Positions 2 to 61,009 of a stretch of DNA of 64,000 bases are shown in pieces; within the stretch, counting starts at the first letter, position 1; the number at the start of each line of letters is the position of its first letter. This DNA comes from Dokdonia sp. PRO95 (lineage in GTDB: Bacteria > Bacteroidota > Bacteroidia > Flavobacteriales > Flavobacteriaceae). Below the pieces are notes generated by a model. That model searched no databases, was not told the DNA's origin, and saw only the letters and a program-made list of their open reading frames with translations. The stretch covers positions 3,047,966-3,111,965 of the forward strand of contig NZ_CM001837.1 in the NCBI RefSeq assembly GCF_000355805.1. The letters are read 5' to 3'. Made by a program: the position numbers and the translations under genes.

Positions 2-1660
2 GATGCAGCGTCAAACAACTCTGTAGATGATATACGTAGTCTTATAGATCAAGTACGCATCCCGCCACAGGTAGGAAAGTACAAGGTGTATATTATTGAT
101 GAGGTGCACATGCTCTCTGCTGCGGCCTTTAATGCGTTTCTTAAAACACTAGAAGAACCTCCTAAGCACGCTATTTTTATACTAGCGACTACAGAAAAAC
201 ACAAAATCATCCCTACGATACTTTCTCGTTGTCAGATTTTTGACTTCAAGCGTATTACCGTAACAGATGCTCGCAAGCACCTTGTACAGATTGCGCAAGA
301 AGAAGGTATTGAAGCAGATGAAGAAGCATTACATATCATTGCTCAAAAAGCAGATGGTGCGATGCGTGATGCTTTATCCATTTTTGACCGCGTAGTGAGT
401 TTTAGTGGTAAAACGCTTTCGCGAAAAGCAGTGACAGAGAACTTAAATGTTCTTGACTACGATACCTATTTCACCACCACAGATTATTTACTTGCAAACG
501 ATATACCACAGGTACTCGTACAGTATAATGATATCTTGTCACGTGGTTTTGATGGACATCACTACATTGCTGGTCTAGCTTCTCATTTTAGAGACTTAAT
601 GGTTTGTAAAAATCCGCCGACGATTCATTTATTAGAAGTGGGCGATACAACTAAGAAGAAATACTACGAGCAATCACAAAAAACCGATATGGCTTTCTTA
701 ATGGAAGCTATCAATATTGCAAATGATTGTGATCTTAAATTTAGAACCAGCCGTAACCAGCGACTGCTAGTAGAACTTTGCCTCATGCAACTTGCCTCTA
801 TCACTTTTGATGGAGAAAAAAAAAATGACGGTCCGTTCTTAGTACCACCTTCTTATTATAAAGTAGATCATACACCGACTGGCGCAGCGCCACAAGCGCA
901 AACGGCAGTTGTATCAAATAACACTTCAGCTACACAAGCACCAAGTGCTACAAATGCAGCAGCAGTAGCAGCAGCTGTTACGCAAACGCCGAGTACTCCT
1001 ACTCCGCCGCCTACTGTACAGCAAAGTGTACCTGTACAAGAAAATACTGTTGCACCAAATACAAGTGCTCCACAAGCAACGCAAGCTCAAACGCAAAATG
1101 CAGCTCCTGCACAGAACACAGCAGCAACACCGCAAGCTGCTCCTGTAACGCCTCAAGCCTCACCTACTACTCCTAGCGTACCAGAATTATCATTGCGCAA
1201 GGATCGTGTGTCTGGGTTGTCACTTAAAGGATTACAGCGCAAAAAGGAGCTAGAGCTAAAGAAAGCTGACAAAAAAGTAGATGTAGAAAATCTACCTACA
1301 GAGCCATTTACAGAAATTGCAATGCAAGCTGCTTGGGCAGAGTATGTAAAACGTCTTCTTGCCAAAGGAGAACGTATTATCGCCTCTAACCTAGAAGCAG
1401 ATCAGCCGACATTGAATGGGACTACCATTGAATTAGAGTATCCTAACGAGACGATGAAAATTGAAGTAGAACGTGCTCAAGGGCCGCTACTTGAATTTTT
1501 AAAACGTAGTCTCAACAATTATGATATTACTTTAGGAATTACGGTAAATGAAGAAGTACAGCGCAAATATGCCTATACTGCTCAAGAACGATATGATAAA
1601 CTACGAGAACACAATCCTGCGCTAGATATCCTCAGGAAAACATTTGATCTCGACCTATAA
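2..1660 (+). CDS. dnaX: DNA polymerase III subunit gamma/tau (5' truncated)
   Basis: Clamp-loader ATPase that loads the sliding clamp for replication. The frame is open from base 2 and already reads conserved AAA+ sequence (DAASNNSVDDIR) before the first Met at 86, so the true start lies outside the window. Visible motifs are Walker B (IIDEVHM), sensor 1 (ILATTE) and LSRCQIFDF. A long Ala/Gln/Thr/Pro-rich linker (about 880-1180) leads to a C-terminal domain ending KTFDLDL, as in tau. A near copy of the TTTCGCGAAA palindrome (414-429) encodes LSRKA. The miaE-like gene follows after 11 bp, probably in the same operon. The Walker A region is not in view. Confidence 0.97.
   Translation, partial: DAASNNSVDDIRSLIDQVRIPPQVGKYKVYIIDEVHMLSAAAFNAFLKTLEEPPKHAIFILATTEKHKIIPTILSRCQIFDFKRITVTDARKHLVQIAQEEGIEADEEALHIIAQKADGAMRDALSIFDRVVSFSGKTLSRKAVTENLNVLDYDTYFTTTDYLLANDIPQVLVQYNDILSRGFDGHHYIAGLASHFRDLMVCKNPPTIHLLEVGDTTKKKYYEQSQKTDMAFLMEAINIANDCDLKFRTSRNQRLLVELCLMQLASITFDGEKKNDGPFLVPPSYYKVDHTPTGAAPQAQTAVVSNNTSATQAPSATNAAAVAAAVTQTPSTPTPPPTVQQSVPVQENTVAPNTSAPQATQAQTQNAAPAQNTAATPQAAPVTPQASPTTPSVPELSLRKDRVSGLSLKGLQRKKELELKKADKKVDVENLPTEPFTEIAMQAAWAEYVKRLLAKGERIIASNLEADQPTLNGTTIELEYPNETMKIEVERAQGPLLEFLKRSLNNYDITLGITVNEEVQRKYAYTAQERYDKLREHNPALDILRKTFDLDL
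414..429. repeat. near copy of 16-bp palindrome, in dnaX
   Basis: CGCTTTCGCGAAAAGC: the palindrome core is intact, but one extra A shifts the right arm. It encodes LSRK within dnaX, the only copy in this codon phase. Confidence 0.6.
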
Positions 1661-1671
1661 AAAAACACGCT

Positions 1672-2277
1672 ATGGAAAATAAAGAAGCTATCCAGATGCT
1701 CCACCTTAAATTACCTACAGATCCTCGCTGGGTAAATATTGTAGAAAAAAACATAGAAGAAATACTTACAGATCACGCCTACTGCGAGCAGAAAGCTGCT
1801 TCTAGTGCGATTTCCTTTATCATAGGTTTTCCAGAATACTCAGAGCTTGTTGCTGCGATGAGTGATCTTGCCATGGAAGAAATGAGCCACTTTAAAATGG
1901 TGCATGATATCATGATAGAAAGAGGATTACACCTAGGTCGTGAGCGCAAGGATGCCTACGTGCACAAGCTACGTTTCTTTTTCCCAAAAGGAGGATCAAG
2001 AGTAGAGAGCTTAGTCAACCGTTTGCTGGTTGCGGCGCTTATTGAAGGTAGAAGCTGTGAGCGTTTCCGCTTACTGTCTGAGGAGCTTGAAGATAAAAAG
2101 CTTGCTAAGTTTTATCGCAAACTCATGATAAGCGAGGCTGGACACTATACGATGTTCTTAAACTTTGCACGCCAGTATGGAGACAGAGCAAAAGTAGATG
2201 CGAAGTGGCAAGAGCTACTAGATTTTGAAAAGCAAGTAATGAAGGATCTAAGTGTTACAGAAACCATACACGGATAA
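1672..2277 (+). CDS. miaE: tRNA-(ms[2]io[6]A)-hydroxylase, MiaE family
   Basis: Ferritin-like non-haem diiron enzyme family that hydroxylates the isopentenyl group of modified A37 in tRNA. The 201 residues have the expected ligand pattern: Glu39 in DHAYCEQKAAS, E70-M-S-H73 in the second helix, and later EGRSCERF and SEAGHY (E-x-x-H). Length fits the family. It starts 11 bp after dnaX and is probably cotranscribed. Family assignment is firm; activity depends on ms2i6A synthesis genes outside the window. Confidence 0.9.
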   Translation: MENKEAIQMLHLKLPTDPRWVNIVEKNIEEILTDHAYCEQKAASSAISFIIGFPEYSELVAAMSDLAMEEMSHFKMVHDIMIERGLHLGRERKDAYVHKLRFFFPKGGSRVESLVNRLLVAALIEGRSCERFRLLSEELEDKKLAKFYRKLMISEAGHYTMFLNFARQYGDRAKVDAKWQELLDFEKQVMKDLSVTETIHG

Positions 2278-2314
2278 TATTTCCACTAGTTTTCTCAACT
2301 AAACATAAGCTTAT

Positions 2315-2779
2315 ATGCGCATACATATTCTTATCATTTCTTGTCTAGTAGTGAGCTGTATCGCTTGTAAGGAGAAAGCACCCGTACAAAAACCAACCAC
2401 ACCTTTTGATTATCTACTAGGAGACTGGGAGCGAACTAATAGTAAAGGCGGTAGTGAGACCTTTGAACACTGGAAAACGGTTACGGCTACAGAGCTACGA
2501 GGTCATGGTTACACCTTAGAAGACGAGGACACCGTTTTTAACGAGCGCATGCGACTTGTACAAAAGAAAAACGAGTGGCAACTGCAAATAAGTGGGCCAA
2601 ATGAAACGCCAACCGTTTTTAAAATCACTGAGAATGATGGCAAGTCATTTACGGCTGTAAATCCTGAAAATGAGTTTCCTAAGGTGATTAGGTATTCTTA
2701 CTTTGATGATGTGCTTACGGCAACTATCTCCTCAGAGGAAATGGAAATTCCGTTTATATTCTGGCGGATAGAAGATTAA
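2315..2779 (+). CDS. DUF6265-like lipoprotein
   Basis: Predicted small lipoprotein of 154 residues. A short hydrophobic signal ends in lipobox VVSC (Cys15; Cys18 is an alternative). The mature part begins with a Lys/Pro-rich linker, then FDYLLGDWER...ETFEHWK...LRGHGYTLE, the look of the lipocalin/FABP-like DUF6265 proteins common in Bacteroidota. No catalytic motif is visible. It converges with the thioredoxin gene on the other strand, and the two stop codons overlap by 4 bp. Function unknown. Confidence 0.8.
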   Translation: MRIHILIISCLVVSCIACKEKAPVQKPTTPFDYLLGDWERTNSKGGSETFEHWKTVTATELRGHGYTLEDEDTVFNERMRLVQKKNEWQLQISGPNETPTVFKITENDGKSFTAVNPENEFPKVIRYSYFDDVLTATISSEEMEIPFIFWRIED

Positions 2780-3348
2780 CCTTCGGTGAGGAGTTTATCT
2801 ATGATGGTTCTTATGCTATCGCTATTCCAGTCTGAGGCGCCTGTTTCTTTTACCACTATATTTCCTTCCTGATCGATGATGTAACTCGTAGGTATCGAGC
2901 GTTCAAAAAGTAACTCCGGTGTTTCCATCGCAGGTAAAACTGCTGGGAGGTCTAGTTCTCTTTTAGTCATAAACTTTTTGACTACTTCAGGATCTTCGTT
3001 TGTGATGAGCAAGAACGTAATCTTATCTCCATAATCTGCATGCAGTTCAGCTATAGATGGTAGTTCGGCAATACACGGAGGGCACCATGTTGCCCAGTAA
3101 CTTATAAAAGTGACTTTGCCCTTCCCTACGCCTACTTCGGCTGGGATTCCTTCTAGCGAGCTTACTTTATAATCAAAAGACTGGAGTTGAGTTTGGTCCT
3201 TTTTCGCGAAAGCGGACGGAGAAAATATCGCCACCTTCACCTTATTTATTGCCACCTGAATAGGAGTCCGCGTCTGCGGAATAATAAGCAGGAGAATCAC
3301 AATGATGAACAATATATTTTGCCAACTAAATCTTTTTTTCTGAGCCAT
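2776..3348 (-). CDS. TlpA-type membrane-anchored thioredoxin-like protein
   Basis: Periplasmic thiol-disulfide oxidoreductase anchored by one N-terminal membrane segment (NILFIIVILLLIIPQT). The redox motif is WATWCPPC, followed by the thioredoxin cis-Pro region SIPTSYIID. I chose the ATG at 3348 (MAQKKRF...). A longer reading from 3393 would begin inside the upstream terminator hairpin. The 3199-3214 palindrome variant encodes SAFAKK just after the membrane segment. Probable role is thiol reduction in the cell envelope; the partner is unknown. Confidence 0.88.
   Translation of the reverse strand: MAQKKRFSWQNILFIIVILLLIIPQTRTPIQVAINKVKVAIFSPSAFAKKDQTQLQSFDYKVSSLEGIPAEVGVGKGKVTFISYWATWCPPCIAELPSIAELHADYGDKITFLLITNEDPEVVKKFMTKRELDLPAVLPAMETPELLFERSIPTSYIIDQEGNIVVKETGASDWNSDSIRTIIDKLLTEG
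3199..3214. repeat. near copy of 16-bp palindrome, in TlpA-type gene
   Basis: 14 of 16 positions match CGCTTTCGCGAAAGCG and the right arm is complete. It lies in the coding sequence and encodes AFAK. Confidence 0.6.
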
Positions 3349-3349
3349 A

Positions 3350-3393
3350 GGGAATAAAAAAATGCGTGTGTACGATGAGTCGTACACACGCAT
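3350..3393 (-). terminator. intrinsic terminator of the triple-repeat lipoprotein gene
   Basis: A 14-bp perfect stem (arms 3362-3375 and 3380-3393, stem sequence ATGCGTGTGTACGA) with a 4-nt loop. On the minus strand it is followed by a run of T (plus-strand A run 3355-3362). It sits 21 bp beyond the stop at 3415. Confidence 0.9.
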
Positions 3394-5240: not shown

Positions 5241-5707
5241 AGCGCGTGTAGGATTTAATTGTTACACATCTGTCGGCAGCCGCTCTGTAACCTTACAGCC
5301 AGTAGGCGTTTATAGCATTGTGGGTGTAGTACGCTTACGCGAAAATGTCTCGCGTTATATCCATATGCTTTTATGAGCAATGTGTTTAGTGGGTGGTTGT
5401 TTTTAGTGACTGCTCGCGAAAAACTGATATCCTTTTTGAAGTAAAGTGACTTATTTTCAATTATTTCGCTATAAATGAGGATTACCGTATGGCAGTTTGG
5501 ATTTGAGGTGGTAGATTAGTGGTTTGCTTGTAGGTATTGATTCTTTACAGCAATAAATGGCAATCTTAAATAATATTTTATCAACTGATATTCATTGGTT
5601 TGTGGTTGGGGTTTTGGTAGATTGCTTATGTATTCAAGTTGTGCTTAATGTTAGAGAAACATCGTTACAAACGTTAAAATTTATTACATTTAAAAAAATA
5701 AAAACTT
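5241..5707. other. 467-bp intergenic region at the left edge of the accessory stretch
   Basis: No convincing gene. It contains the short inverted repeat CTGTAA-CC-TTACAG (5285-5298) and two eroded lookalikes of the TTTCGCGAAA palindrome (about 5332-5347 and 5403-5414). A 55-codon open frame (5557-5724) overlaps the next gene start and is not supported. Base composition becomes visibly more A+T-rich toward the right. Confidence 0.6.
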
Positions 5708-6046
5708 ATGGCAGTAAAAGTTGAGACAGTTGATATTCTGAAAAAATATTTTGAAGGAGTTACCAAACGAGCCAATCATCACGCACCAAACGTAAATGAT
5801 GTAATTTATGGTTTACTCGGAGTGATAATTCTAAAAAAAGACGATGGCACACACATAGAAGTTCGTGGTAGCGACGATGATAAAACTGGAAATATACTTT
5901 GGGTAACTATAGGTGGTATACGATACGCTTTTAGATATGAGCATTCAGATGGAACAATAGAAATAAGAAGAGACACATACAAAGGTCCTTTGGTTTTAAA
6001 AATTGATAATTCAACAACTCTTCAACAAGTTATTAATTGCTTTTAG
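5708..6046 (+). CDS. hypothetical protein, cassette-type
   Basis: A soluble 112-residue protein of unknown function. The N-terminal half is helical (VDILKKYFEGVTKRANHHAPNVNDVIYGLLG). The C-terminal half looks like beta strands (IEVRGSDDDKTGNILWVTIGGIRYAFRY...GTIEIRRDT). No signal peptide or catalytic motif. Similar small proteins occur, as I recall, in gene-cassette-like settings of marine Bacteroidota. First of a tight three-gene run, overlapping or abutting the next two, which suggests they work or move together. Confidence 0.7.
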   Translation: MAVKVETVDILKKYFEGVTKRANHHAPNVNDVIYGLLGVIILKKDDGTHIEVRGSDDDKTGNILWVTIGGIRYAFRYEHSDGTIEIRRDTYKGPLVLKIDNSTTLQQVINCF

Positions 6047-6051
6047 ATAAA

Positions 6052-6429
6052 ATGGAGTGGGCTAAAGTTTTCAATCAAGTATCTTCAATAAAAGTCAAAA
6101 GTGTAACTGACTCTTTGTTCAAATTTGGAACGTTTGGATTAATCATTGGAGTTGTTTCAGCAATTTTCTCTGACAAAGACTGGGTTGTAATCGTAGTCTT
6201 TTCTTTTTCAGCTTTATTTTATCTTATTGGTCTGTTTTTCTACTGTTTTTTTGCATTAAAAAAACCAGATTATCTTAGAAGTGAAGAATATCAAACTCAA
6301 AAACAAGCATTGGAATTGTTGGGCGACAACGAAAGAGCTCATAATCAAAATCTATCACACCTTCACCTAATAACAAACCCAAATGCACCAAAAAATGACA
6401 ACAATAGCGAAAATCCGTTAACAGAATGA
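6052..6429 (+). CDS. small two-pass membrane protein, unknown
   Basis: About 125 residues. Two hydrophobic segments (FGTFGLIIGVVSAIF and VVIVVFSFSALFYLIGLFFYCFFAL) are followed by a polar Asn-rich tail. I prefer ATG 6052; a TTG at 6037 would overlap the previous gene by 10 bp. The stop overlaps the next start as ATGA, so translational coupling is likely. Function is unknown; the layout of small soluble protein, membrane protein and small soluble protein would fit a toxin-immunity or stress module, but nothing proves it. Confidence 0.65.
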   Translation: MEWAKVFNQVSSIKVKSVTDSLFKFGTFGLIIGVVSAIFSDKDWVVIVVFSFSALFYLIGLFFYCFFALKKPDYLRSEEYQTQKQALELLGDNERAHNQNLSHLHLITNPNAPKNDNNSENPLTE

Positions 6430-6737
6430 ATTGGGATAAATTTTATATAATCACTTTGGACAATGATGGAATTCCCAGCTCATTTAATAAAAAAGTATTT
6501 CATAATCAACTGACTAAAACAAATGGAGTTATAGCGTGGTGGCATTATTTGGAATCCACCTACATTATTAAAGTTGGATATTCTGTGAATGCTGCTCATA
6601 TTGCTGAGTTAATGAAAGAAATTGCACCAAGTAAAAAGTTTTTCACATCGGAAATAAAATTTAATGATTTTAATGGTTGGCTACCTAACGAAGCTTATGA
6701 ATGGATACGCGAAAACACTAAGCACAACAACGTATAA
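6426..6737 (+). CDS. hypothetical protein, cassette-type
   Basis: A soluble 103-residue protein, coupled to the preceding gene by an ATGA overlap. It has an Ile/Val strand (FYIITLDND), a central aromatic motif IAWWHYLESTYIIKVG and a C-terminal FNGWLPNEAYEWIREN. Proteins with this W-W-H-Y and GWLP-W-I pattern recur as unknown small proteins in Bacteroidota. Its last codons (N-N-V-stop) lie inside the left arm of the attC-like inverted repeat, as in integron-style cassettes. Confidence 0.65.
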   Translation: MNWDKFYIITLDNDGIPSSFNKKVFHNQLTKTNGVIAWWHYLESTYIIKVGYSVNAAHIAELMKEIAPSKKFFTSEIKFNDFNGWLPNEAYEWIRENTKHNNV

Positions 6738-13800: not shown

Positions 13801-13850
13801 TACTGTTTGATTGTTATGCTTTCGCGAAAGCGTAACAACCACTATAAGTA
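13801..13850. repeat. extended palindrome repeat, copy A
   Basis: Aligns with 15385-15434 at about 37 of 50 positions, including flanks outside the palindrome (TACTGT on the left, CACTAT on the right). The palindrome variant is at 13817-13832 (TGCTTTCGCGAAAGCG, 15 of 16). A fragment of the HD-hydrolase 3' end follows directly. Confidence 0.6.
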
Positions 13851-22405: not shown

Positions 22406-22421
22406 CGCTTTCGCGAAAGCG
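22406..22421. repeat. perfect 16-bp palindrome, intergenic
   Basis: Exact CGCTTTCGCGAAAGCG between the AraC-linked membrane gene and the MFS gene. Confidence 0.8.
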
Positions 22422-28799: not shown

Positions 28800-30050
28800 T
28801 TACTCAGCTAGCAACTGTGCTATAAATTTTTCAAACTCCTCTTTAAACTCAAGGTGCTTCTCCCCTGTCGCTGTACCATTATATCCAGTGTGGATGCGTC
28901 TCACAGCTCCTTTCTTGTCAATATAAATCGTAGTTGGATATGAAAGCACATGATTAAGCATAGGCAGCTTTTCGGCTGCTTTTTTCTTATCTGCCCCTTC
29001 TCCATACTGCGCAAGTAGTACTGGATATGGTAATTGCAATCTATCTGTAAGTCGGTTGATGCTCTTTACTGCTGTAGCTTCAGTCTTTGCATATTCAAAT
29101 GCTAGCCCCACAACCTTCAAGTTCTCATTAGGGTTGCCAGTGATGTAATCTCTATAAAAGATAGACTCTTCAAGACAATTAGGACACCAAGAACCCATTA
29201 TTTGTACAAGCACCACTTTATCCTTGTATTCCTCATCTTGCAAAGAAACTATACGACCGCTGGTATCTTTAAATGAAAAATCAAATCGATCATACCCTTC
29301 TTTTAAATACGTAAGCCCTTTTGCGTCTGGCAATTCGTAGTCATTATTTTTTATCGCTGTAAATGCTTCTTTAAAGTGGTTTCCGCTATAGAACTGCCCC
29401 TGCATCGTACTATCTGTTACAGTTGCCACAAAGAGAAAAGCATGCGCTCCGTCAAAAGTTGACAGCCTAAGTTCGTCACCATCTAATTTTCCTTCGAGAT
29501 AGCGATAATCACCCGTTGTAGTTCTAAAAGTACCCGTAACAATATCACCATCTGACTTAAAAGTACCTTTGGCGATATATCGATCTTTAGCATTATCTGG
29601 GCTAAAAACAGTCTCCCAACTACCATCTACATTCACACTTGCTGTATTCTCGCTTAATACTTCGGCTGAGGAAACAAAACGTTCTTTTACTCCGTAATTC
29701 ATTGTAAACGGTACCACTCGATCAAGACTTGGCTTTATAAAGGAGCCCGTTATTTGATTCCCGCTTTCGCGAAAGCGTCCTACAAAATATCCCTCAAAAA
29801 CAGGAGTTTGGATACGTATACTATCGCCATTAATCTCAATTTCATCCACTTCTATACGCTCCTCTGCGTTATAAATGGTTATGATTTCATCATCATTTAC
29901 CTCAAATACAAAAGGAAGTTCTTCTTGATCCTGAACAGCTAGTGTAGCTCTCCAAAAACCTGAATTCAACGTTTGAGGAGTGATTACTACCTTGTCTTGT
30001 TTGCAAGAAATAATGCTAATAAATGAGATGAGAATAAGTATGTGTTTCAT
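28800..30050 (-). CDS. lipoprotein with C-terminal TlpA-type thioredoxin domain
   Basis: A 416-residue predicted lipoprotein (lipobox IISC, Cys16). An N-terminal beta-rich domain of about 240 residues (lipocalin-like strands: FEVNDDEIITIYN, GTFKSDGDIVTGTFR) precedes a thioredoxin domain with MGSWCPNC and cis-Pro SYPTTIYID. Predicted periplasmic thiol-disulfide oxidoreductase. The domain order resembles Bacteroidota TlpA/ResA-like lipoproteins. A perfect palindrome copy encodes GRFRESGN inside the N-terminal domain. Confidence 0.85.
   Translation of the reverse strand: MKHILILISFISIISCKQDKVVITPQTLNSGFWRATLAVQDQEELPFVFEVNDDEIITIYNAEERIEVDEIEINGDSIRIQTPVFEGYFVGRFRESGNQITGSFIKPSLDRVVPFTMNYGVKERFVSSAEVLSENTASVNVDGSWETVFSPDNAKDRYIAKGTFKSDGDIVTGTFRTTTGDYRYLEGKLDGDELRLSTFDGAHAFLFVATVTDSTMQGQFYSGNHFKEAFTAIKNNDYELPDAKGLTYLKEGYDRFDFSFKDTSGRIVSLQDEEYKDKVVLVQIMGSWCPNCLEESIFYRDYITGNPNENLKVVGLAFEYAKTEATAVKSINRLTDRLQLPYPVLLAQYGEGADKKKAAEKLPMLNHVLSYPTTIYIDKKGAVRRIHTGYNGTATGEKHLEFKEEFEKFIAQLLAE
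29762..29777. repeat. perfect 16-bp palindrome, in thioredoxin-lipoprotein gene
   Basis: Exact copy within coding sequence, encoding RFRES. Confidence 0.8.
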
Positions 30051-32937: not shown

Positions 32938-33660
32938 ATGCTATTATCCAGAACCAACATTCACGAAAAGTTGCTTCGTGAGCGCAGTAAAAGTGAGCAA
33001 GAACAAGATATCCTAGCACAAGTACAACAGGTTTTTGATCAAGACCGCTTTCGCGAAAGCGGAATCCTCAAAACCCTAAAAGGAGCTTCTGAGGCAGGTT
33101 ATAACGAGTTTGACTTTGACTTACTTGAGACCTCAAAAATCTTCCACATTAAACAAATAGAGAAAATATGCGTAGACTATAGACTGCGTTTTCTCGACAC
33201 CAAATACTTTAAAGGAAAATATCCTCAAGAAGTACTTGACAATATTAAACACCTTGAAAACACACATCACACGGAACTTGATGGTTTTAAAATCATTGCT
33301 CCTTCTAAAATGTTTGTTCTAGAAAAGGCAGACGACCCATTATTATTTGCGCCTATGGGTAACGGCTATTACTATCTTATCCACCAGTGGGGTAATGATC
33401 TTAACCCTTTTAGAAAACAATGGGCATGGTCGTTTAAGTCTATTGAAAACTTAATAATTACGACAGTACTCATTAGCATAATCGCGACATTATTAACACC
33501 AGACGGTCTTTTTACAAAGAATCAAGATTTTGGTCAAGATATTATGGTATTTTTCTTTATGTTTAAGTCCATCGGAGCGGTAGTTCTATTTTATGCATTT
33601 GCACTAGGTAAGAACTTTAACAAAGCGATATGGAATAGCAAGTACGATAAAACAAGATAA
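32938..33660 (+). CDS. conserved flavobacterial membrane protein
   Basis: A 240-residue protein. A soluble N-terminal part of about 160 residues (with helical IHEKLLRERSKSEQEQDILAQV) is followed by two membrane segments (NLIITTVLISIIATLL and DIMVFFFMFKSIGAVVLFYAFAL). A perfect palindrome encodes DRFRESGI near residue 38. The next gene starts 17 bp later and encodes a DUF2007 protein; the pair is probably an operon. Function unknown. Confidence 0.72.
   Translation: MLLSRTNIHEKLLRERSKSEQEQDILAQVQQVFDQDRFRESGILKTLKGASEAGYNEFDFDLLETSKIFHIKQIEKICVDYRLRFLDTKYFKGKYPQEVLDNIKHLENTHHTELDGFKIIAPSKMFVLEKADDPLLFAPMGNGYYYLIHQWGNDLNPFRKQWAWSFKSIENLIITTVLISIIATLLTPDGLFTKNQDFGQDIMVFFFMFKSIGAVVLFYAFALGKNFNKAIWNSKYDKTR
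33046..33061. repeat. perfect 16-bp palindrome, in membrane-protein gene
   Basis: Exact copy, extended to 18 bp by flanking C and G; encodes RFRES. Confidence 0.8.
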
Positions 33661-35990: not shown

Positions 35991-37394
35991 ATGAAGTACC
36001 TCCTACTCTTACTTATAGTTTCTACTACCCTTACTAGCTGCGTTTTTGAAGAAAATGATAAAGCTCAAGGAACATATTTAGGGGGACAGATTATTAACCC
36101 CGTACAGAGTTATGTATTGCTTCGCAAGGGCGAAGTGGTTACAGACAGTATTCCCCTAGATAGGAGAAATAGGTTTTTATACAAATTTGATGATTTCCAG
36201 CCAGGTCTTTATAGACTCGAGCACGGAGAACACCAACTTGTGCATATAGAAGAAGGTGACAGTATATTATTGAGAGTAAATACTAAAGATTTTGATGAAT
36301 CTCTTAGTTTTTCTGGCTATGGCGCAGATAAAAGTTCATTCTTACTTGACATGTATTTACACTGGGAAAGTGAAAATGAAAGCATCAAAAAAAAATATCA
36401 AAAAAACCCAAAGAACTTTCAGAAGACGCTAGATTCTATGGCGATTACTCATAAAGAGGAGCTCGATAAATTTTTACTTGATAAAGATTATTCGGATGAA
36501 TTTATTGAAATAGCCAGATCTGTAACAGAATTTGATAATTACCAGCGTAAAGAGTGGTATCCATTTGCACATTATGGAAAAGACAAGTTATCATTTATCG
36601 CTAGCTTACCTGATGATTTTTACAGCTTTCGCGAAAGCATAGATGTAAACAACCCTAATCTTGAAGAACTTTATAGCTTTAGAAGATATCTTTCTTCTTA
36701 CATTAATAATTTAACCTACCAACGCTATGGAAAGGAAAATGATTATAACCGTACCTCATACATACACAACCACCATCAGATAGCAGTAATTGACAGCCTT
36801 ATAACTAATAAAGAACTCAAGGAGAGACTTTTATCTCAAATGTCGCGTATTTTTATTGCTAATAGTAACAACTTAGAAGAAGTTGATAAGCTTTTTGACG
36901 AAATAAAAGAGGTCTCCACCTCTACCGAGACAGTTGCCCTGATTAATGCGTTATACGACAATAACAAATCTATGCAGGCGGGAAATATGATTCCAGATGT
37001 CATGATTATAGGCGCAGACTCTGGAATGAACACCTTGTCTAGTCGTATTACAAAGCCTACAGTATTATTTTTCTGGTCTTATTTAAGAATGGCTCACATG
37101 GATAACTCTCATGCAAAAGCACGTGAACTACAAGTAAAGTACCCAGAGTTCAATTTTATTGCCATTAACGTAAACACAGAGCATAATAAGTGGATGCTTC
37201 ACTTAAATAAAAATAATTTTGATGAGTCTAAAGAGTATAGACTTGCAAAACCAAAACAAGCTAGAAAACAGCTTGTACTCAATGACATTAACAAGACTAT
37301 CGTTCTTGACAAAGACGGAAAGATTTTAAATAGTCATGCAAACCTGCACAACTCAAAATTTGAAAACGAACTTCTGGCTTACTTAAATCAATAG
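35991..37394 (+). CDS. lipoprotein with redox-dead thioredoxin-like C-terminus
   Basis: A 467-residue predicted lipoprotein (lipobox LTSC, Cys17). The N-terminal part (about 30-110) is a beta-rich DUF4369-like region (GGQIINPVQSYVLLRKGEVVTDSIPLD). The middle is helical. The C-terminus (about 335-467) has a thioredoxin-like layout (TKPTVLFFWSYLRMAHMDNSHAKARELQVKYPEFNFIAINV...TIVLDKDGKIL). The position where CxxC would stand reads FFWSYLRMAH, so it cannot do thiol chemistry. A near copy of the palindrome encodes YSFRESID. Confidence 0.78.
   Translation: MKYLLLLLIVSTTLTSCVFEENDKAQGTYLGGQIINPVQSYVLLRKGEVVTDSIPLDRRNRFLYKFDDFQPGLYRLEHGEHQLVHIEEGDSILLRVNTKDFDESLSFSGYGADKSSFLLDMYLHWESENESIKKKYQKNPKNFQKTLDSMAITHKEELDKFLLDKDYSDEFIEIARSVTEFDNYQRKEWYPFAHYGKDKLSFIASLPDDFYSFRESIDVNNPNLEELYSFRRYLSSYINNLTYQRYGKENDYNRTSYIHNHHQIAVIDSLITNKELKERLLSQMSRIFIANSNNLEEVDKLFDEIKEVSTSTETVALINALYDNNKSMQAGNMIPDVMIIGADSGMNTLSSRITKPTVLFFWSYLRMAHMDNSHAKARELQVKYPEFNFIAINVNTEHNKWMLHLNKNNFDESKEYRLAKPKQARKQLVLNDINKTIVLDKDGKILNSHANLHNSKFENELLAYLNQ
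36624..36639. repeat. near copy of 16-bp palindrome, in lipoprotein gene
   Basis: 14 of 16 positions; the inner 14-mer GCTTTCGCGAAAGC is perfect. It encodes FRES. Confidence 0.65.
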
Positions 37395-39115: not shown

Positions 39116-39131
39116 CGCTTTCGCGAAAGCA
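39116..39131. repeat. near copy of 16-bp palindrome, intergenic
   Basis: 15 of 16 positions (CGCTTTCGCGAAAGCA), next to the terminator of the thioredoxin gene. Confidence 0.7.
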
Positions 39132-42316: not shown

Positions 42317-44007
42317 AAAATTTAAAACACATATCATACCTCCTAGTAGCAATCATAATATTGATTGCATTAAATATCATAAGCTCGCTAGCGCACAAAC
42401 GCTATGACCTAACGCAAGATCAACGTTATAGTTTAAGTGATCCTACGCTTGATTTATTAGATCAAGTAAATAGTCCGCTTATTATTGATGTATTTCTCGA
42501 AGGAAATTTTCCAGCAGAGTTTAAGAAACTTCAAAACGAGACGCGCTATCTGCTAGAGGAAATGCAAGCCTATAACGATAATATAAGGTTTGAATTTTCT
42601 AACCCAGTTGAAGAAGGAGAAAATGTAGCCGAAGTTGCGGGACAATTCAATGAATTTGGGATGACTACCATCCCTCTCAAAGTAAAAGAAAACGGAAAAG
42701 AAACCACGCAAACTATATTTCCTTGGGCTACCATAAACTTTAATGATAAAGCTCAACCCGTATCACTCGTAAAAAATGTAGTAGGTGCCTCTCCAGAACA
42801 GCTTGTATATGGCTCTATCCAAAATCTTGAGTACGCCTTTGCCGAAAGTTTACACAGCACTCTTAATGCAAAGTCTAAGCGTATTGCTGTTTTAAGAGAT
42901 AATGGCGAGCTACCAGATGCAAATATTGCAGATTTGTTTCGTAAACTAGGTGACACCTATAATATCGCTCCTTTCCCATTAGAATTTGCAAACCAAGATC
43001 CAGATAAGGCACTCAAAGCTTTACAAAACACCTTTGATCTAGTAGTTATTGCAAAACCTACAAAAGCCTTTACAGACAAGCAGAAGTATGTGATTGATCA
43101 ATATATCATGAATGGTGGTAACAGCCTTTGGATGCTCGATGCAGTAGCCATGGAAGATGATAGCTTGCGTAATGACCAAGGAAAAACCATTGCTTTTCCT
43201 AGAGATATTAATCTAGATGACCAATTATTTAAATACGGAATTAGAGTAGACCCATCCTTAGTAGTAGACCTCTACTCTGCCCCACTTAGCGTTGCATCTG
43301 GTGATGGCAGTGATGCTCAGTACATACAGTTACCTTGGTTGTACAGACCGCAAGTACCTAGTATGAATACGCATCCCATTAATACTAATATTGAAAAGCC
43401 TGTTCTTTTTAATTATGCAAACCCTATCACCTTATTAGACAACAATAGTGACGTAAATAAAACAGTATTACTACAGTCTAGTATTTATACCAAAATAGAA
43501 AGTACGCCACGAGAAATCTCTTTAGGCCAAGTAGATATTGAACCTTTAGAGAGTGATTTTCAAAATGGGCAACAACCACTTGCTGTTCTCCTAGAAGGCT
43601 CGTTTAATTCGGCTTTTACTAATAGAGTCTTACCAGATGGAAGTGATCGTAGTATTTTTCGCGAAAGCGCACAAAAAAATCCTAAGCTTATTCTCATAGC
43701 CGATGGTGATATAATCTCAAATAGCCTTGATGCACGGGGGCAACCACTAGAATTAGGTTTTGATTATTACACAAGGACCAGCTACGGGAATAAAGAGTTT
43801 TTACTCAATGCGATTAACTATCTTCTCGATGACAGTGGGCTTATTAACATAAGGACTAAAGAAATTGCACTTCCTTTTCTCGATATGAAAAAGACAGCGC
43901 AAAGTGTAAGCACGTGGCAAGTCTTGACTATTGGGCTTCCGCTGGTTATTTTACTTATCTTTGGACTCATCTACAACGCAATTAGGAAGCGTCGCTACGC
44001 GCGCTAG
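42313..44007 (+). CDS. gldG: gliding-motility ABC transporter substrate-binding protein GldG
   Basis: A 564-residue membrane-anchored protein from a GTG start overlapping gldF. An N-terminal span (ISYLLVAIIILIALNIISSLA), KRYDLTQDQRYSLSDPTLDLLDQVNSPLIIDVFLEGNFPAEFKKL, a large extracytoplasmic domain and a C-terminal span (WQVLTIGLPLVILLIFGLIYNAI) fit GldG. Part of the Gld ABC system; its precise job in gliding is unclear. A near copy of the palindrome encodes SIFRESAQ. Confidence 0.92.
   Translation: MKNLKHISYLLVAIIILIALNIISSLAHKRYDLTQDQRYSLSDPTLDLLDQVNSPLIIDVFLEGNFPAEFKKLQNETRYLLEEMQAYNDNIRFEFSNPVEEGENVAEVAGQFNEFGMTTIPLKVKENGKETTQTIFPWATINFNDKAQPVSLVKNVVGASPEQLVYGSIQNLEYAFAESLHSTLNAKSKRIAVLRDNGELPDANIADLFRKLGDTYNIAPFPLEFANQDPDKALKALQNTFDLVVIAKPTKAFTDKQKYVIDQYIMNGGNSLWMLDAVAMEDDSLRNDQGKTIAFPRDINLDDQLFKYGIRVDPSLVVDLYSAPLSVASGDGSDAQYIQLPWLYRPQVPSMNTHPINTNIEKPVLFNYANPITLLDNNSDVNKTVLLQSSIYTKIESTPREISLGQVDIEPLESDFQNGQQPLAVLLEGSFNSAFTNRVLPDGSDRSIFRESAQKNPKLILIADGDIISNSLDARGQPLELGFDYYTRTSYGNKEFLLNAINYLLDDSGLINIRTKEIALPFLDMKKTAQSVSTWQVLTIGLPLVILLIFGLIYNAIRKRRYAR
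43654..43669. repeat. half copy of the 16-bp palindrome, in gldG
   Basis: 13 of 16 positions, right arm complete; encodes FRES. Confidence 0.5.
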
Positions 44008-45344: not shown

Positions 45345-45360
45345 CGCTTTCGCGAAAGCA
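45345..45360. repeat. near copy of 16-bp palindrome, intergenic
   Basis: 15 of 16 positions (CGCTTTCGCGAAAGCA), between the dnaN terminator and the M28 peptidase gene. Confidence 0.7.
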
Positions 45361-48075: not shown

Positions 48076-49251
48076 TTAATCTGCGACTAGTACTGTCTTT
48101 TTCAAAACAGCCTTAAGTGCTTGGTCTATATCTTCCATCAGGTCTGCCTTCTCCTCTATTCCTACAGAAAAACGAATTAAGCCATCTGCGATACCCTGTT
48201 TTGCTCGCTCTTCTTCTCCTAGTAATGAGTGCGAAGTTTGTGCTGGACATAACATCGTACTCTCTACACCTGCAAGACTCATAGAAGGTTTGATAAGTTG
48301 TAGGGCTTTCTGAAAATCTTCGGCATCAATATGTGCTGCTAGTTCAAATGACATCATCCCTCCAAAACCACTCATCTGCTCTTTGGCTAGTTTATAATCT
48401 GGATGAGATTTTAATCCTGGATAGTACACCTGACTTATCTCGTCTTTCTTATCAAGCCATTTTGCTATTTTCTTTGCATTTCTATTTTGTGCTTTTACAC
48501 GTAGAGCCATGGTTTTCATGCTACGCTCAAGCATCCATACGGTAAGATCACTTAGACTTCCTCCTAGATTTTTTGCTAGATTCCAGATGCGATCCATATG
48601 TTCTTGACTCGCAGCAATTGCTCCAGCACAGATGTCACTGTGCCCTCCCATATATTTTGTTGCAGAGTGAAGTATAATATCAATCCCAAAATCTGCTGGA
48701 TTTTGATTTACTGGAGAGGCAAATGTATTATCTATCATAGTCACAATGCCATGCTTTTTGGCAAGTGCAGCAACCATCTTCATATCTGTGACCTTCATAA
48801 GTGGATTAGAAGGTGTCTCAATGTAAATCACTTTAGTTTGTGGAGTTATCGCTTTCGCGAAAGCGGCTTCACTCAAATCCTCTGTAAATGAATATGTAAT
48901 ACCGTACTTTTCAAACTCCTCAACTACGAGGTTATACGTACCTCCATATAAAGTTTCTTGAAGTACAACATGGTCGCCACTTCTCAAAAAAGCCAGCAAT
49001 GCAGTACTTACTGCCGCCATACCACTACCAAAGATCATCCCCGCTTCTGTCTTCTCAAGAGCAGCAATTTTCTTACCCAATCCTTCTTGATTAGGAGTAT
49101 TAAAATAGCGTGGGTAGCGCTTTACATCTACATCCATAAAGGCATAAGAAGATGATAAGTAAATAGGAGATACAGCTCCCTGAAACTGCTCGTCTTTGAT
49201 TTCTCCTGTATGCGTACAAATGGTATTAAGACCTTTATGTGATTTACTCAT
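48076..49251 (-). CDS. metB: trans-sulfuration PLP enzyme (cystathionine gamma-synthase-like)
   Basis: A Cys/Met-metabolism PLP enzyme of 391 residues. ATG 49251 is chosen (MSKSHKGLNTICTHTGE); an upstream TTG at 49269 is less likely. The PLP lysine is in SATKYMGGHSD; cofactor contacts are FGSGMAAVSTAL, YGGTYNL and IDNTFASP, and the substrate loop is RFSVGIEEKADLMEDIDQAL. Gamma-synthase, gamma-lyase and beta-lyase are hard to separate by sequence. A perfect palindrome copy encodes EAAFAKAI. Confidence 0.85.
   Translation of the reverse strand: MSKSHKGLNTICTHTGEIKDEQFQGAVSPIYLSSSYAFMDVDVKRYPRYFNTPNQEGLGKKIAALEKTEAGMIFGSGMAAVSTALLAFLRSGDHVVLQETLYGGTYNLVVEEFEKYGITYSFTEDLSEAAFAKAITPQTKVIYIETPSNPLMKVTDMKMVAALAKKHGIVTMIDNTFASPVNQNPADFGIDIILHSATKYMGGHSDICAGAIAASQEHMDRIWNLAKNLGGSLSDLTVWMLERSMKTMALRVKAQNRNAKKIAKWLDKKDEISQVYYPGLKSHPDYKLAKEQMSGFGGMMSFELAAHIDAEDFQKALQLIKPSMSLAGVESTMLCPAQTSHSLLGEEERAKQGIADGLIRFSVGIEEKADLMEDIDQALKAVLKKTVLVAD
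48850..48865. repeat. perfect 16-bp palindrome, in PLP enzyme gene
   Basis: Exact copy within coding sequence; encodes AFAKA. Confidence 0.8.
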
Positions 49252-50235: not shown

Positions 50236-50697
50236 GTGAACATCATTCCATACAATTCTCAATTTGCTGCAGACTTTAAAACTCTTAATATAGAATGGCT
50301 CGAGGCCTTTTTCTACGTAGAGCCTTATGATCTCAAAGTGTTGAGTAATCCTGAAGAATATATCATAAACAAAGGAGGTTTTATCTTCTTTGCATCAAAA
50401 GATGATCAAATTCTAGGTACGGTAGCGCTCATGCCTTCTGGAAATACGGGTGTGTTAGAACTCACAAAGATGGCAGTTTCACCTTCGGCGAGAGGGATGG
50501 GTATTGGGCAGCAATTGATTGCACATTGTCTCGCTTTCGCGAAAGCGCAACACCTCAACAAACTCATCTTATACTCACACCGTACGCTAGAAAATGCCAT
50601 TCATATCTATAAAAAATGGGGTTTTATAGAAATTCCTCTTGAAGAAGATGTGGTCTACAAGCGCGCAAACATTAAAATGGAACTCGTATTTAACTAA
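50236..50697 (+). CDS. GNAT family N-acetyltransferase
   Basis: A 153-residue protein from a GTG start. The acetyl-CoA loop is SARGMGIGQQLI (R-G-x-G-x-G), preceded by ELTKMAVSP and followed by LILYSHRTLENAIHIYKKWGFIEIP. Substrate unknown. Just after the CoA loop, the helix CLAFAKAQ is encoded by a perfect palindrome copy. Confidence 0.87.
   Translation: MNIIPYNSQFAADFKTLNIEWLEAFFYVEPYDLKVLSNPEEYIINKGGFIFFASKDDQILGTVALMPSGNTGVLELTKMAVSPSARGMGIGQQLIAHCLAFAKAQHLNKLILYSHRTLENAIHIYKKWGFIEIPLEEDVVYKRANIKMELVFN
50532..50547. repeat. perfect 16-bp palindrome, in GNAT gene
   Basis: Exact copy within coding sequence; encodes AFAKA in the helix after the acetyl-CoA loop. Confidence 0.8.
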
Positions 50698-52529: not shown

Positions 52530-52934
52530 AATTTAATAGTTGTTTAATGGTTATACGTTTAATGCAAAGAATTGGATTTTATTATAAACGCTTTAGCGAA
52601 AATATTCTTTTTACCATACAATTAACGCCAACTATTAAAAAATGTTAAAACATATTATAGGTTTAGTTCGTAGAAGCTGAGCTTATTAAAATATTGCTCG
52701 ACATTACTCATGTATTGGAGCAACGTATGTACTTTATTTAGAACTAAACTTTAAAGTGCGTACTAAGACTTACATGTTCTGGTTAGTGGGACTATCCCTT
52801 GTAGGGTGATACTATAGAAGTCCTATTTCTATAATTTTTTACGCTTTCGCGAAAGCGTAATACTCTAAACACTAGTCACACTGTTAACTAATATTAAAAA
52901 AGAATCCTACTCAAACTATTTTACGGAAATTGCA
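52530..52934. other. 405-bp divergent intergenic region
   Basis: Between the divergent coiled-coil and DUF2254 genes. It holds one perfect palindrome extended to 22 bp by TTA and TAA (52839-52860). No open frame or RNA gene recognised. Confidence 0.55.
52842..52857. repeat. perfect 16-bp palindrome, intergenic
   Basis: Exact CGCTTTCGCGAAAGCG with symmetric flanks TTA and TAA (22 bp in all). Confidence 0.85.
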
Positions 52935-55087: not shown

Positions 55088-56827
55088 ATGAAACACTACG
55101 CCATAATAGGAGGAGGTCCCAGAGGACTTTTTGCTCTTGAAAGCCTTTTTACCGCGCTCTACAATAACGCTCCAGAAGCTCAAATAAAAGTCACCTTATT
55201 TGAACCTTTTAAATATCCTGGAGCAGGCTGGGTATGGAATCCTGAGCAAGTAGAAAGCAACTGGCTTAATATTACTGAGCGTGCCTTACAAGACTTACCT
55301 GGCAGACCAGAAATAAAACTAGGTGATGATATCATCCCTGCATTTCCCTCATACACGGAGTGGTTACCAGAAGAACAACAAAATCCACCAGCTACGCATC
55401 CAGATCAGTTTCCTCCACGGGCAAAGATGGGAACCTACCTTAATGCTCGTTTTGAGACTATTACTAGTGCGCTTAAGGGATTTGATTTATTAAATCTTGT
55501 TGAGGAAACTGTTACCAAACTCACCTATATCGCACCAGTATTCACAGCAATTACAAAAAATACATCAGTCACTGCAATAGATGAAGTAGTTCTCACAATA
55601 GGACATCAGGATACGGAGCTTTCAGAGCAGCTGCAAGAATGGAAAGATCACGTTGCACAAACGGATAACGCCCTGCTATTTACAGAAGCCTATCCCGTAG
55701 AAAAGATGATAAATGCAAACATTACCTCAGAGAGTGTAGTTGCTTTTAGAGGTTTTGGACTTGCAATGATTGATCAGATACGTGCGCTCACCTTGCAACG
55801 CGGAGCACATTTTGAGATACTTGATAATGATACCAAAGAAGTAGCTTTTCAGGCTGGAGAAAACCATCCGCAGCGGTTTGTTCCATTTTCCTTAGACGGA
55901 CTTCCTATGGTGCCAAAACCAATAAATAAAGCGGTAGATAAGTGGTTTATGCCAAGTGATGATGCTATAAACGCTTTCGCGAAAGCGATACATAAAGGTG
56001 CCTGCGGCGATCACCCAGCCAAGGATCAATATTTCTTACTAGAAGCAATGGCAACTGTTGTAGCCCCCCTGTTTTTAAAATTAGGAGACAAAGCCACACA
56101 ACACGATCTTACTGAAGAAGAAATTTATTTCTTGACGATAAATTACCTCAACAATAAATCACTTGCGCATCCCCTACTCTTATCCCATCAAAAACCTGTC
56201 TTGCAAATGATGCAACAGCAAGTGGAAATGGCAGTAGGAGAAGCACCGGTTAGCCTCGACTATTTTATAGGTCAAGTATGGCGACACTGCCAACCATCCA
56301 TCTACAGAGAGTTCTCATATCCAGCAAGCGCAGATGATGTGGTTGCCGAAGTTATTGCGCTAGACGAAGCATCAAAGCGATATTCTTACGGTCCACCTGT
56401 TGAGAGCATACAACAGCTTATCGCGCTTGCAAAAGCAGGATTATTAGATCTTGGCTTTGTAAATAATCCAGAAATCACTTGCGTAGACGGAGGCTGGCAA
56501 CTTGAATCTGATGGCAATAAAATTACCGTAGACATAATGCTTAACGCCGTACTGGACTCACCACAACTTGTCACCGTGGATACACCAATTATAAAAAACT
56601 TGCTTAGTAATAAAATGATTGAACCCAAACATACAGATCTAGGCATACGCACAGACGATTATGGTTATGTAGAAGTACCAGAAGGTAAAAGTTTTGTGCC
56701 ACTAGCGGTATTGGGCAGACTATCTAAGGGAAGTGTGATAGGTGTAGATGCAATTTTAGAGTGTTTTGGACCGCGTACTATAAGCTGGTCTGAGCGCAGT
56801 ATAGCCTTAATGAAGAACGAAAAATAA
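55088..56827 (+). CDS. FAD/NAD(P)-binding protein (HI0933-independent, NAD_binding_9 type)
   Basis: A 579-residue flavoprotein-like protein. The dinucleotide-binding motif IIGGGPRGLFALESL starts at residue 6, and VTLFEPFKYPGAGWVW follows as in the FAD-NAD(P)-binding family with N-hydroxylase-like architecture. A second nucleotide segment (VVAFRGFGLAMIDQIRAL) lies near residue 220. Predicted cytoplasmic oxidoreductase; substrate unknown. The Gre-factor gene starts 5 bp after its stop. A perfect palindrome encodes INAFAKAIH. Confidence 0.82.
   Translation: MKHYAIIGGGPRGLFALESLFTALYNNAPEAQIKVTLFEPFKYPGAGWVWNPEQVESNWLNITERALQDLPGRPEIKLGDDIIPAFPSYTEWLPEEQQNPPATHPDQFPPRAKMGTYLNARFETITSALKGFDLLNLVEETVTKLTYIAPVFTAITKNTSVTAIDEVVLTIGHQDTELSEQLQEWKDHVAQTDNALLFTEAYPVEKMINANITSESVVAFRGFGLAMIDQIRALTLQRGAHFEILDNDTKEVAFQAGENHPQRFVPFSLDGLPMVPKPINKAVDKWFMPSDDAINAFAKAIHKGACGDHPAKDQYFLLEAMATVVAPLFLKLGDKATQHDLTEEEIYFLTINYLNNKSLAHPLLLSHQKPVLQMMQQQVEMAVGEAPVSLDYFIGQVWRHCQPSIYREFSYPASADDVVAEVIALDEASKRYSYGPPVESIQQLIALAKAGLLDLGFVNNPEITCVDGGWQLESDGNKITVDIMLNAVLDSPQLVTVDTPIIKNLLSNKMIEPKHTDLGIRTDDYGYVEVPEGKSFVPLAVLGRLSKGSVIGVDAILECFGPRTISWSERSIALMKNEK
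55972..55987. repeat. perfect 16-bp palindrome, in flavoprotein gene
   Basis: Exact copy within coding sequence; encodes AFAKA. Confidence 0.8.
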
Positions 56828-57347: not shown

Positions 57348-57363
57348 CGCTTTCGCGAAAGCG
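57348..57363. repeat. perfect 16-bp palindrome, intergenic
   Basis: Exact copy with TTA and TAA flanks (22 bp, 57345-57366), followed by CAAA as at 58186-58211. Confidence 0.85.
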
Positions 57364-59823: not shown

Positions 59824-59857
59824 AGTTTATCTATATTTATAGTCTAACTCACTGTAT

Positions 59858-60955
59858 ATGCGCTTTATTATATTACTATTTGTATGCTGTATTTGTGTCG
59901 TTGCTTGCGATAAAACTCCTCAAGTAAAGGCTGCACTACATCAAAATCATATAAGGCATCAAGAGGATACTATCGGTTTTGCTCAATATTCATGGCAAAT
60001 GGATAGTATAATCAGTAGAATGGATGACGCAGATAAACTACCAAATTCTGAAACCTACAAAGCTGTAATATGCCCACATGATGATTATGGATATGCTGGA
60101 GGATTATATTACAAAACCCTCTCTGGAATAAAAGCCAAAACAATTATCCTTGTGGGCGTAGCTCACAGAGCAAGAAATTTTGACTTACAAGATCGTATCA
60201 TTTTTGGGAGTTATGATAGTTGGCAATCTCCCGATGGCATTATTCCTGTAAGTAACCTTAGAGATAAACTCCTCACTAAACTCAAAAAAGAAACATACGT
60301 CGTGCATGATTCTATGATGCAGTTAGAACATTCTCTAGAAGCTATAACCCCTTTTTTAAAACGCAAAAACCCTTCTCTAGAAATCATACCTATGCTCGTT
60401 CCTTACAACACATTCCAAAACATGCAGTTATTTTCTGATGATATAGGAAGTGGTATTGCTGCGCTAATGAAGGAAGAGAATCTAATATATGGTAAAGATA
60501 TTGCTGTCGTAATTTCTAATGATGCTATACATTACGGTTCTGAGGGCTGGGGAAGCGGTAATCTCGCTCCCTTTGGCACAGACAGTACAGGGACAGCTCA
60601 GGCTAGGCAGAAGGATCTTGATATTGTAAAGGAGACGCTACAGGGAGAACTCACCACAAAGAGGATTAAAAAGTTCAATGATATAACCATTATGGCTGAC
60701 GATTATAAGGCTTATAAATGGACTTGGTGTGGTAGATACTCCACTCCTTTCGGCTTACTGCTTGCAAATCGCATTGAGCAACTTACGGGAGCGTCTAATA
60801 AAGATGGAAAACTTCCGCACCTTACTGGTACGTTTATAGACTGGCGATCTAGCATACACAATACTCATATTAAGGTTGACGATTTACACATGGGGCATAC
60901 CGCACAGGCAGATAGCACGCACTGGGTAGCTTATGTAGGTATGTCTTATCAATAA
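59858..60955 (+). CDS. Memo-like (AmmeMemoRadiSam B) lipoprotein
   Basis: A 365-residue lipoprotein (lipobox VVAC, Cys17) with a Memo-type fold. ICPHDDYGYAGGLYYKTL replaces the usual PH-x-G-Y-x-Y-S-G pattern; VGVAHRA, the diagnostic MQLEHSLEAITPFL, VPYNTF and ISNDAIHYG follow. Memo proteins bind Cu or Fe with His/Asp/Cys ligands. Cytoplasmic homologues pair with a radical-SAM partner, but this copy is lipid-anchored and lacks those neighbours. It starts 34 bp after the EEP gene. Confidence 0.82.
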   Translation: MRFIILLFVCCICVVACDKTPQVKAALHQNHIRHQEDTIGFAQYSWQMDSIISRMDDADKLPNSETYKAVICPHDDYGYAGGLYYKTLSGIKAKTIILVGVAHRARNFDLQDRIIFGSYDSWQSPDGIIPVSNLRDKLLTKLKKETYVVHDSMMQLEHSLEAITPFLKRKNPSLEIIPMLVPYNTFQNMQLFSDDIGSGIAALMKEENLIYGKDIAVVISNDAIHYGSEGWGSGNLAPFGTDSTGTAQARQKDLDIVKETLQGELTTKRIKKFNDITIMADDYKAYKWTWCGRYSTPFGLLLANRIEQLTGASNKDGKLPHLTGTFIDWRSSIHNTHIKVDDLHMGHTAQADSTHWVAYVGMSYQ

Positions 60956-60993
60956 CGTTTTAATTTCTCGATGATGTAAAATGTTTGGTGTTA

Positions 60994-61009
60994 CGCTTTC
61001 GCGAAAGCG
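60994..61009. repeat. perfect 16-bp palindrome, intergenic
   Basis: Exact copy, extended to 18 bp by A and T, preceded by TT. Confidence 0.85.

Follow-up and report, generated by a model that had tools for sequence, protein, structure and literature searches.

Why should one short palindrome recur hundreds of times on a bacterial chromosome? The function of iterated palindromes has been a question since HIP1 (highly iterated palindrome 1), and it becomes testable in a culturable genus with a stretch of 64,000 nucleotides from Dokdonia sp. PRO95 (GCF_000355805.1, contig NZ_CM001837.1, positions 3,047,966 to 3,111,965; hereafter the window), over which a perfect 16-bp palindrome is strewn. A preliminary description of the window counted twelve exact and about ten near copies, half of them in genes and half between, and considered this far above chance. 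All twelve exact copies are present at the positions given, six within and six between the open reading frames (ORFs) of the window, together with ten copies carrying 1–3 mismatches each; the chance mean for these 22 matches at up to three mismatches is 0.08 in total. One near copy, at 5332, is doubtful because the TTTCGCGAAA core, retained by the other copies with three mismatches, is missing from it, even if permuted palindromes give only 0.8 copies at three mismatches per 464 kb. Genome-wide, the excess is larger than claimed. The single contig of 3,305,093 bp contains 577 exact copies of the 16-mer and 794 of its inner 14-mer, GCTTTCGCGAAAGC, while the reversed controls yield none. For the 14-mer, Markov models (orders 0–5, trained on a genome sample after masking of the sites) predict 0.002–0.03 copies, which amounts to the genome-wide over-representation of a short palindrome by which HIPs are recognized. 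Neither a count near expectation nor confinement to one mobile element family, the two refutations named at the outset, was found. The palindrome looks like an apparently undescribed signal on the organism's own DNA for some protein. We favor the view, with a probability of about 0.4, that it is a self-DNA signal whose role may resemble that of uptake sequences in Haemophilus and Neisseria.

The element itself is larger than the 16–22 bp first described. A profile of 242 Dokdonia sites (from the own genome, D. sinensis and eight other loci) gives a unit of about 50 bp, consisting of a G/T-rich arm, TTA, CGCTTTCG joined to CGAAAGCG, TAA and an A/C-rich arm, with a near-invariant part of 14 bp and biased arms of 18 bp. 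On both strands, the 5' side is rich in T and G and poor in C to about −18 from the 14-mer; the information in the arms is down to 0.007 bit at −20 and does not exceed 0.056 bit from there to −30. Moving away from the core, the sites favor C (0.82), A, T and T, followed by weaker preferences with dips at −8 and −14. The TTA and TAA reported to flank intergenic copies are real (A 0.85, T 0.87 and T 0.68 going outward), and 29 of 32 one-mismatch copies of the 16-mer in 464 kb sampled deviate at the outermost base. Statistics on spacing, context and mismatches refer to an N-free sample of 723.5 kb that includes the window and covers 22% of the genome, with 164 intact 14-mers at 0.227 per kb; the genome-wide density is 0.240 per kb. 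At these sites G and T make up 0.671 of the arms versus 0.506 at 35–50 bp out, with 0.5 or less at 10 of the 164, and the bias is seen equally at genic and intergenic sites. Arm-to-arm complementarity was 0.324 with 0.321 expected, i.e. the arms vary independently. This absence of covariation argues against a hairpin or cruciform. Because the arms do not covary, each half is probably read as duplex and not folded.

Next, we consider where the copies lie. Their spacing is far more even than expected: the coefficient of variation (CV) of the gaps is 0.62, compared with a null mean of 0.97 and 0.78 as the lowest of 2000 random trials, and only 3 of 155 gaps are shorter than 1 kb where 32.5 were expected. 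Density is 0.26 per kb around parS and 0.19 near the expected terminus, with 0.24 overall and no clear trend from origin to terminus (the origin would lie near 1.23 Mb, marked by an exact parS pair). Based on ORFs called by length and not by a gene finder, 93 of the 164 sites are genic and 71 intergenic, the latter against an expectation of 16.2. In gaps between co-directional genes, 37 of 48 copies are closer to the upstream stop than to the downstream start; divergent gaps contain 10 of 69 classed copies, yet 22% of the spacer bases. The 93 in-gene sites are read in the frames AFAKA (55), LSRK (23) and RFRES (15), and 23 of them fall within 120 nt of the ORF start, a region in which AFAKA would be compatible with a signal peptide. 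Some 800 sites with 14 near-invariant bases are kept at even steps at the cost of these fixed peptides; something needs them.

How sites arise was viewed by protein alignment of five in-gene window sites with other genera. Where alignable, the in-gene copies were gained by substitution, namely at three of the five sites: at 36624, Dokdonia reads YSFRES where other genera have YDYRKN or similar, without a gap, and 33046 and 24637 are likewise ungapped at the site. At 29762 the protein is 1–2 residues shorter in many other genera, a difference independent of the site because site-less Dokdonia species keep the longer form, and the N-terminus at 26564 is not alignable. In addition, conservation was followed by blastn in seven species at 72.6–77.6% identity, with 5 of the window's 16 intact sites in aligned parts. 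Here, 20 of 24 species-by-site cells are intact, compared with about 1% of nearby control 14-mers (0–3.4% of draws), although an intact site can itself aid alignment and bias this count upward. A nearer species (L054, 89% identity) keeps 3 of 3 sites, but its controls stand at 41%; no window site fell in aligned parts of D. sinensis (genome G206) or genome G190. At 33046 the 14 bases are kept in all eight species although adjoining codons vary, and the site at 26564 is intact in all three species aligned (L049, L050 and L056). The one at 29762 is intact in two of five. In D. sinensis (L052) the copy at 24637 is exact, that at 26564 is interrupted by an insertion and that at 29762 is missing. 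There is thus turnover, with other sites varying between species at unchanged density. Of note, D. sinensis has two palindromes (L052, 2611 and 5314; 54578 and 51875 in the joined G206 stretches L346–L349) that are interrupted by an inserted hairpin-like element of about 26 bp (AACTTGTCCCGA...TCGGGA). HIP1 is likewise the target of an inserted repeat, according to passages of PMC4390886.

The palindrome is restricted to few lineages. A PheT search of named genomes returned 80 loci, the nine nearest all from Dokdonia and each with 2–7 intact 14-mers in 8–22 kb, while the remaining 71, from other genera or unnamed Flavobacteriaceae, hold no 14-mer and not even TTTCGCGAAA. Site-rich genomes number 6 of 397 in the family: the own genome (794 copies), D. 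sinensis (857), three of genus g11 (578, 664 and 609) and G190 of genus g191 (408). The other 391 contain 0–19 copies, with at least one in 74 of them. Across the phylum, in a set of 296 genomes that takes in the own and some family members, only the own genome exceeds 4. The core is identical in g11 and g191 (16 sites each); the arm bias is clear in the former and weaker in the latter, where sites are also sparser and gaps less even (CV 0.76). In the PheT tree g191 joins Dokdonia (100/99) and g11 stands apart, but a single rich clade is not rejected (p-AU 0.425), so the palindrome may have arisen once or twice. The most repeated 10-mers outside Dokdonia occur at no more than six places and are A/T-rich and non-palindromic (80 of 85 loci were long enough, from 80 PheT loci and five stretches), in a survey whose threshold would miss sparse motifs.

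Even spacing, little use of a close second site and indifference to strand and gene all argue for a self-recognition signal, as do the excess information, the graded mismatches and the gain by substitution. One possible mechanism could be as follows. A dimeric or otherwise two-fold symmetric protein would read the duplex site, whose place, strand and gene would hardly matter; one site per few kb would be needed on any piece of the genome and a close second site would add nothing. If a receptor prefers site-bearing DNA, transformation would replace poor sites by good ones, and the genome would fill by substitution until most fragments hold a site. The protein that binds the site, a competent state in Dokdonia and a bias in uptake are all inferred. 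As such drive predicts, the excess is graded by mismatches: the sample contains 164, 15, 32, 46 and 154 copies of the 14-mer with 0 to 4 mismatches, compared with means of 0, 0.05, 0.85, 14.5 and 137 for 98 permuted palindromes. Each site carries about 39 bits (29.5 in the 14-mer and 9.4 in the arms), whereas 12.0 bits would suffice to locate 794 sites in 3.3 Mb; a motif under drive would have no reason to stay minimal. Also in line with this reading are the preference for spacers, the lack of a clear trend from origin to terminus, the conservation of alignable sites, the phage genes on site-bearing contigs and the presence of ComEC. Uptake sequences, known as uptake signal sequences (USS) in Pasteurellaceae and DNA uptake sequences (DUS) in Neisseriaceae, also occur in hundreds of copies gained by point mutation, are evenly spaced and have a motif larger than the core. 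An excess falling with mismatches, even spacing and a presence in genes and spacers were all found in the 22% sample; strand has no bearing on a palindrome. The graded excess of uptake sequences is described in passages of PMC1939737. The idea of selective uptake in this group gains some plausibility from Riemerella columbina, a competent species that its authors assign to Flavobacteriaceae and that takes up its own DNA in preference, as stated in parts of PMC7965970.

Several points weigh against this interpretation. In contrast to known uptake sequences, the Dokdonia site is palindromic, occurs in Bacteroidota and comes without a known receptor; we know of no palindromic uptake sequence, and the literature searched contains no report of competence in Dokdonia. 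Uptake sites of Haemophilus have more one-mismatch copies, and the few copies with one mismatch in the core (15 versus 164) suggest strong selection per site and not a gentle drive. A fixed architectural site would account just as well for conservation in place. No uptake receptor gene was found, ComEC being the only one sought; it is present in 12 of 12 genomes examined (6 rich, 6 poor) and, occurring in palindrome-free genomes too, is non-discriminating. Density varies from 0.10 to 0.35 per kb across the nine sampled blocks, and 13 stretches of 9.5–14.7 kb, some ended by block edges, lack an intact 14-mer. The top 7–10-mers of R. columbina are only A/T-rich, so that self-preference is seen there without a known motif in the parts of PMC7965970 concerned. 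Taken in full, a palindromic signal of about 50 bp, read as duplex from either direction by a symmetric protein of unknown family, present about once per 4 kb and filling the lineage, is a picture that we put forward tentatively and hold a little more loosely than the general idea of a self-DNA signal. The signal would fill one flavobacterial lineage or several, and as far as the literature searched goes such a genome-wide signal has no described counterpart in Bacteroidota. If it serves uptake, it would be the first known to us in this phylum, and palindromic, with gene exchange among these marine bacteria steered by self-recognition.

A nucleoid or chromosome-organizing protein that binds the sites as a dimer and gives the chromosome its structure in steps of about 4 kb is a near rival because of the symmetry, the conservation in place and the lack of known competence, and we regard it as conceivable but on balance unlikely. 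A two-fold symmetric site with independent arms would fit a protein reading duplex DNA, and even spacing, conservation in place and the absence of a clear bias by chromosome region point in the same direction. Known organizers such as MatP, Noc and SlmA use tens of sites in defined domains, whereas here there are hundreds. Moreover, sites are also found on phage contigs, the sole ParB-family protein pairs with canonical parS, and the roughly 39 bits per site far exceed the need. If the role is architectural, the palindrome would be a regular molecular ruler for the bacterial nucleoid. It resembles the parS and Noc sites as a 16-bp perfect palindrome with a CG center and TTTC/GAAA; unlike these, it occurs by the hundreds everywhere, its half-site has one base fewer between TTTC and the center, and a canonical parS pair exists separately. 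We rejected ParB/parS as the system: ParB_N occurs in one protein in each of the six rich genomes, and the four searched for parS have exact canonical pairs about 1.9 kb apart, with one-mismatch totals at or near control in three of them. That the palindrome is a protein site, as proposed early on, is plausible; a nucleoid or segregation protein could take this part, but not ParB. As a side observation, the ParB recognition helix (compared over L151, L203–L212 and L171–L182) reads GK[N/S]RS in 6 of 6 rich and 2 of 12 poor genomes and GKKRS in the other 10 poor ones. Exact parS is GTTTCACGTG[A/G]AAC or its complement in four rich genomes and GTTCCACGTGGAAC in five poor ones; helix and parS look like a co-varying pair. 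Of the palindromes seen in the own genome, the two nearest neighbors, with 126 bp between them, lie within one large gene and indicated no binder through autoregulation.

Another explanation would be a two-way Chi-like signal, as a palindrome reads correctly from whichever end it is approached, with the G/T arm ending a RecA-loading 3' tail. The density is near that of Chi in E. coli (about 1 per 5 kb), and a G/T-rich arm lies 5' of the core on both strands. Known Chi sites are non-palindromic and span 5–8 bases, whereas a far longer, 14-base palindrome would fold as a single strand; even spacing with few gaps below 1 kb is not required of Chi either. We consider this improbable.

HIP1 (GCGATCGC) is the nearest named phenomenon, and the HIP1-like behavior noted in the preliminary description stands, as the copies are scattered in and between genes. 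Like HIP1 and the alternate HIPs, the palindrome is iterated genome-wide and lineage-bound. A HIP-type sequence upheld by a methyltransferase and biased mismatch repair would also share with those of PMC4390886, in the passages concerned, an iterated GC-richer palindrome in genes and spacers and single deviations at outer bases. The likeness ends with density, length and the methyltransferase link. The same passages give HIP densities of 1000–2000 per million nt (1–2 per kb), against 0.24 per kb here. With 14 near-invariant bases, the 50-bp footprint is unlike a usual methyltransferase site. In the six rich genomes, the C5 methyltransferase family PF00145 is missing from G242 and G190. The N6/N4 family PF01555 is missing from G206, G242 and G394, and in the own genome it does not reach the cut-off; the Dam-type/D12 family PF02086 is missing from the own genome, G010, G242 and G190. 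At E 0.001, all three are absent from G242, itself a rich genome. No enzyme of these three families is common to all six (PF02384 and PF07669, type I and IIG, were unsearched), and a methyltransferase-driven HIP is accordingly a quite remote prospect. The proposed methylation target TCGCGA is unsupported too, given the lack of a common enzyme of these families and 14 near-invariant bases with 18-bp arms that exceed its 6 bp.

A transcription-factor regulon or an RNA hairpin or terminator would account for a palindrome, and for the 37 of 48 co-directional-gap copies nearer the upstream stop, but 93 of 164 copies are in genes, divergent gaps hold 10 of 69 against 22% of the bases and the arms do not covary, making this very unlikely. 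The earlier suggestion of a regulatory-protein site fares poorly as well, with intergenic copies tending to follow stop codons and divergent (promoter) gaps being unfavored. Finally, a repetitive extragenic palindrome (REP/REPIN) moved by a REP-associated tyrosine transposase (RAYT), or another inserted mobile repeat, shares the many dispersed palindromic copies but is hardly credible: three of five in-gene sites align ungapped, a fourth differs by 2 residues untied to the site and the fifth is unalignable; 93 of 164 copies are genic; flanks are alike in composition only; and the RAYT-type Y1 transposase PF01797 is missing from two rich genomes, the own (G000) and G190.

No account of this palindrome was found in the literature searched, which lay mostly outside subscription journals. 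Matching by letters gave no 14-, 16- or 22-mer; the 10-mer does occur in ten papers, among them PMC8034619, whose subject in the parts concerned is sequence words missing from the human and other genomes.

Besides the rich genomes, sites occur at low copy number elsewhere. Of the 74 low-copy genomes, 13 contributed the 18 stretches that we viewed, which were picked mainly because their sites cluster; 39 of the 40 sites in these stretches lie within ORFs. Five of six scanned site-bearing proteins match efflux or P-type ATPase families (OEP, AcrB-type, E1-E2 ATPase twice and CusB-like HlyD); the sixth had no match at 1e-10, and the site ORFs beyond these six are of mixed look. A TolC-like gene carries two sites constantly 933 bp apart in several genera. 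We infer that low-copy sites are DNA transferred from site-rich donors. The sites may also tag Dokdonia-type DNA in other genera and phages and make transfers traceable. Efflux genes with palindromes in otherwise nearly palindrome-free genera were seen at L031–L034, L037, L038, L043 and L044; at L038 (2036–3334) the TolC-like gene has about 27 extra residues where others read AFAKA, perhaps another insertion into a site.

At least 120 stretches of viral contigs contain the 14-mer, of which single matches may be chance, and six viral stretches have the 19-mer form. The 20 ORFs scanned came from contigs bearing either several sites or the 19-mer: some matched head maturation protease, terminase, portal, tape measure, and transposase or integrase (integrase in two loci), 6 had no match and others matched only unknown families. 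These contigs may be free phages or proviruses with host flanks. A 211-aa ORF with a palindrome at its edge recurs in four viral loci (L250, L254, L268 and L292); that of L292, the one scanned, had no PHROG match.

Table 1 Copies of the palindrome in the window, with gene context and state in related species.
Position	Copy	Context	Peptide	Related species
414..429	degenerate, 3 mismatches, TTTCGCGAAA retained	within dnaX-like gene		
3199..3214	degenerate, 2 mismatches	thioredoxin-like (Redoxin/AhpC-TSA) gene 2776-3393 (-)		
5332..5347	doubtful, 3 mismatches, without TTTCGCGAAA core	intergenic		
13817..13832	14-mer core intact	32 bp past a stop codon		
15401..15416	1 mismatch, in core	past a stop codon		
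19066..19081	exact	intergenic		
22406..22421	exact	intergenic, past a stop codon		
24637..24652	1 mismatch	aminopeptidase-like gene 24518-26614 (-)	RFRES	exact in L049, L052
26564..26579	exact	aminopeptidase-like gene 24518-26614 (-), near N-terminus	AFAKA	
29762..29777	exact	gene 28800-30050 (-)	RFRES	
33046..33061	exact	gene 32938-33660 (+)	RFRES	intact in 8/8 aligned species
36624..36639	14-mer core intact	gene 35991-37394 (+)	SFRES	intact in 7/8 aligned species
39116..39131	14-mer core intact	intergenic		intact in 3/3 aligned species
43654..43669	degenerate, 3 mismatches, TTTCGCGAAA retained	within gldG		
45345..45360	14-mer core intact	intergenic, past dnaN		
48850..48865	exact	Cys/Met metabolism pyridoxal phosphate (PLP)-enzyme gene 48076-49269 (-)		
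50532..50547	exact	GNAT acetyltransferase gene 50236-50697 (+)		
52842..52857	exact	intergenic, between divergent genes		
55972..55987	exact	gene 55088-56827 (+)		
57348..57363	exact	12 bp past a stop codon		
58189..58204	exact	30 bp past a stop codon		
60994..61009	exact	39 bp past a stop codon		

Within the window, 5400–13800 forms a long site-poor stretch with several short ORFs and a GmrSD-type restriction gene (6937–8040), which is perhaps recently acquired DNA.

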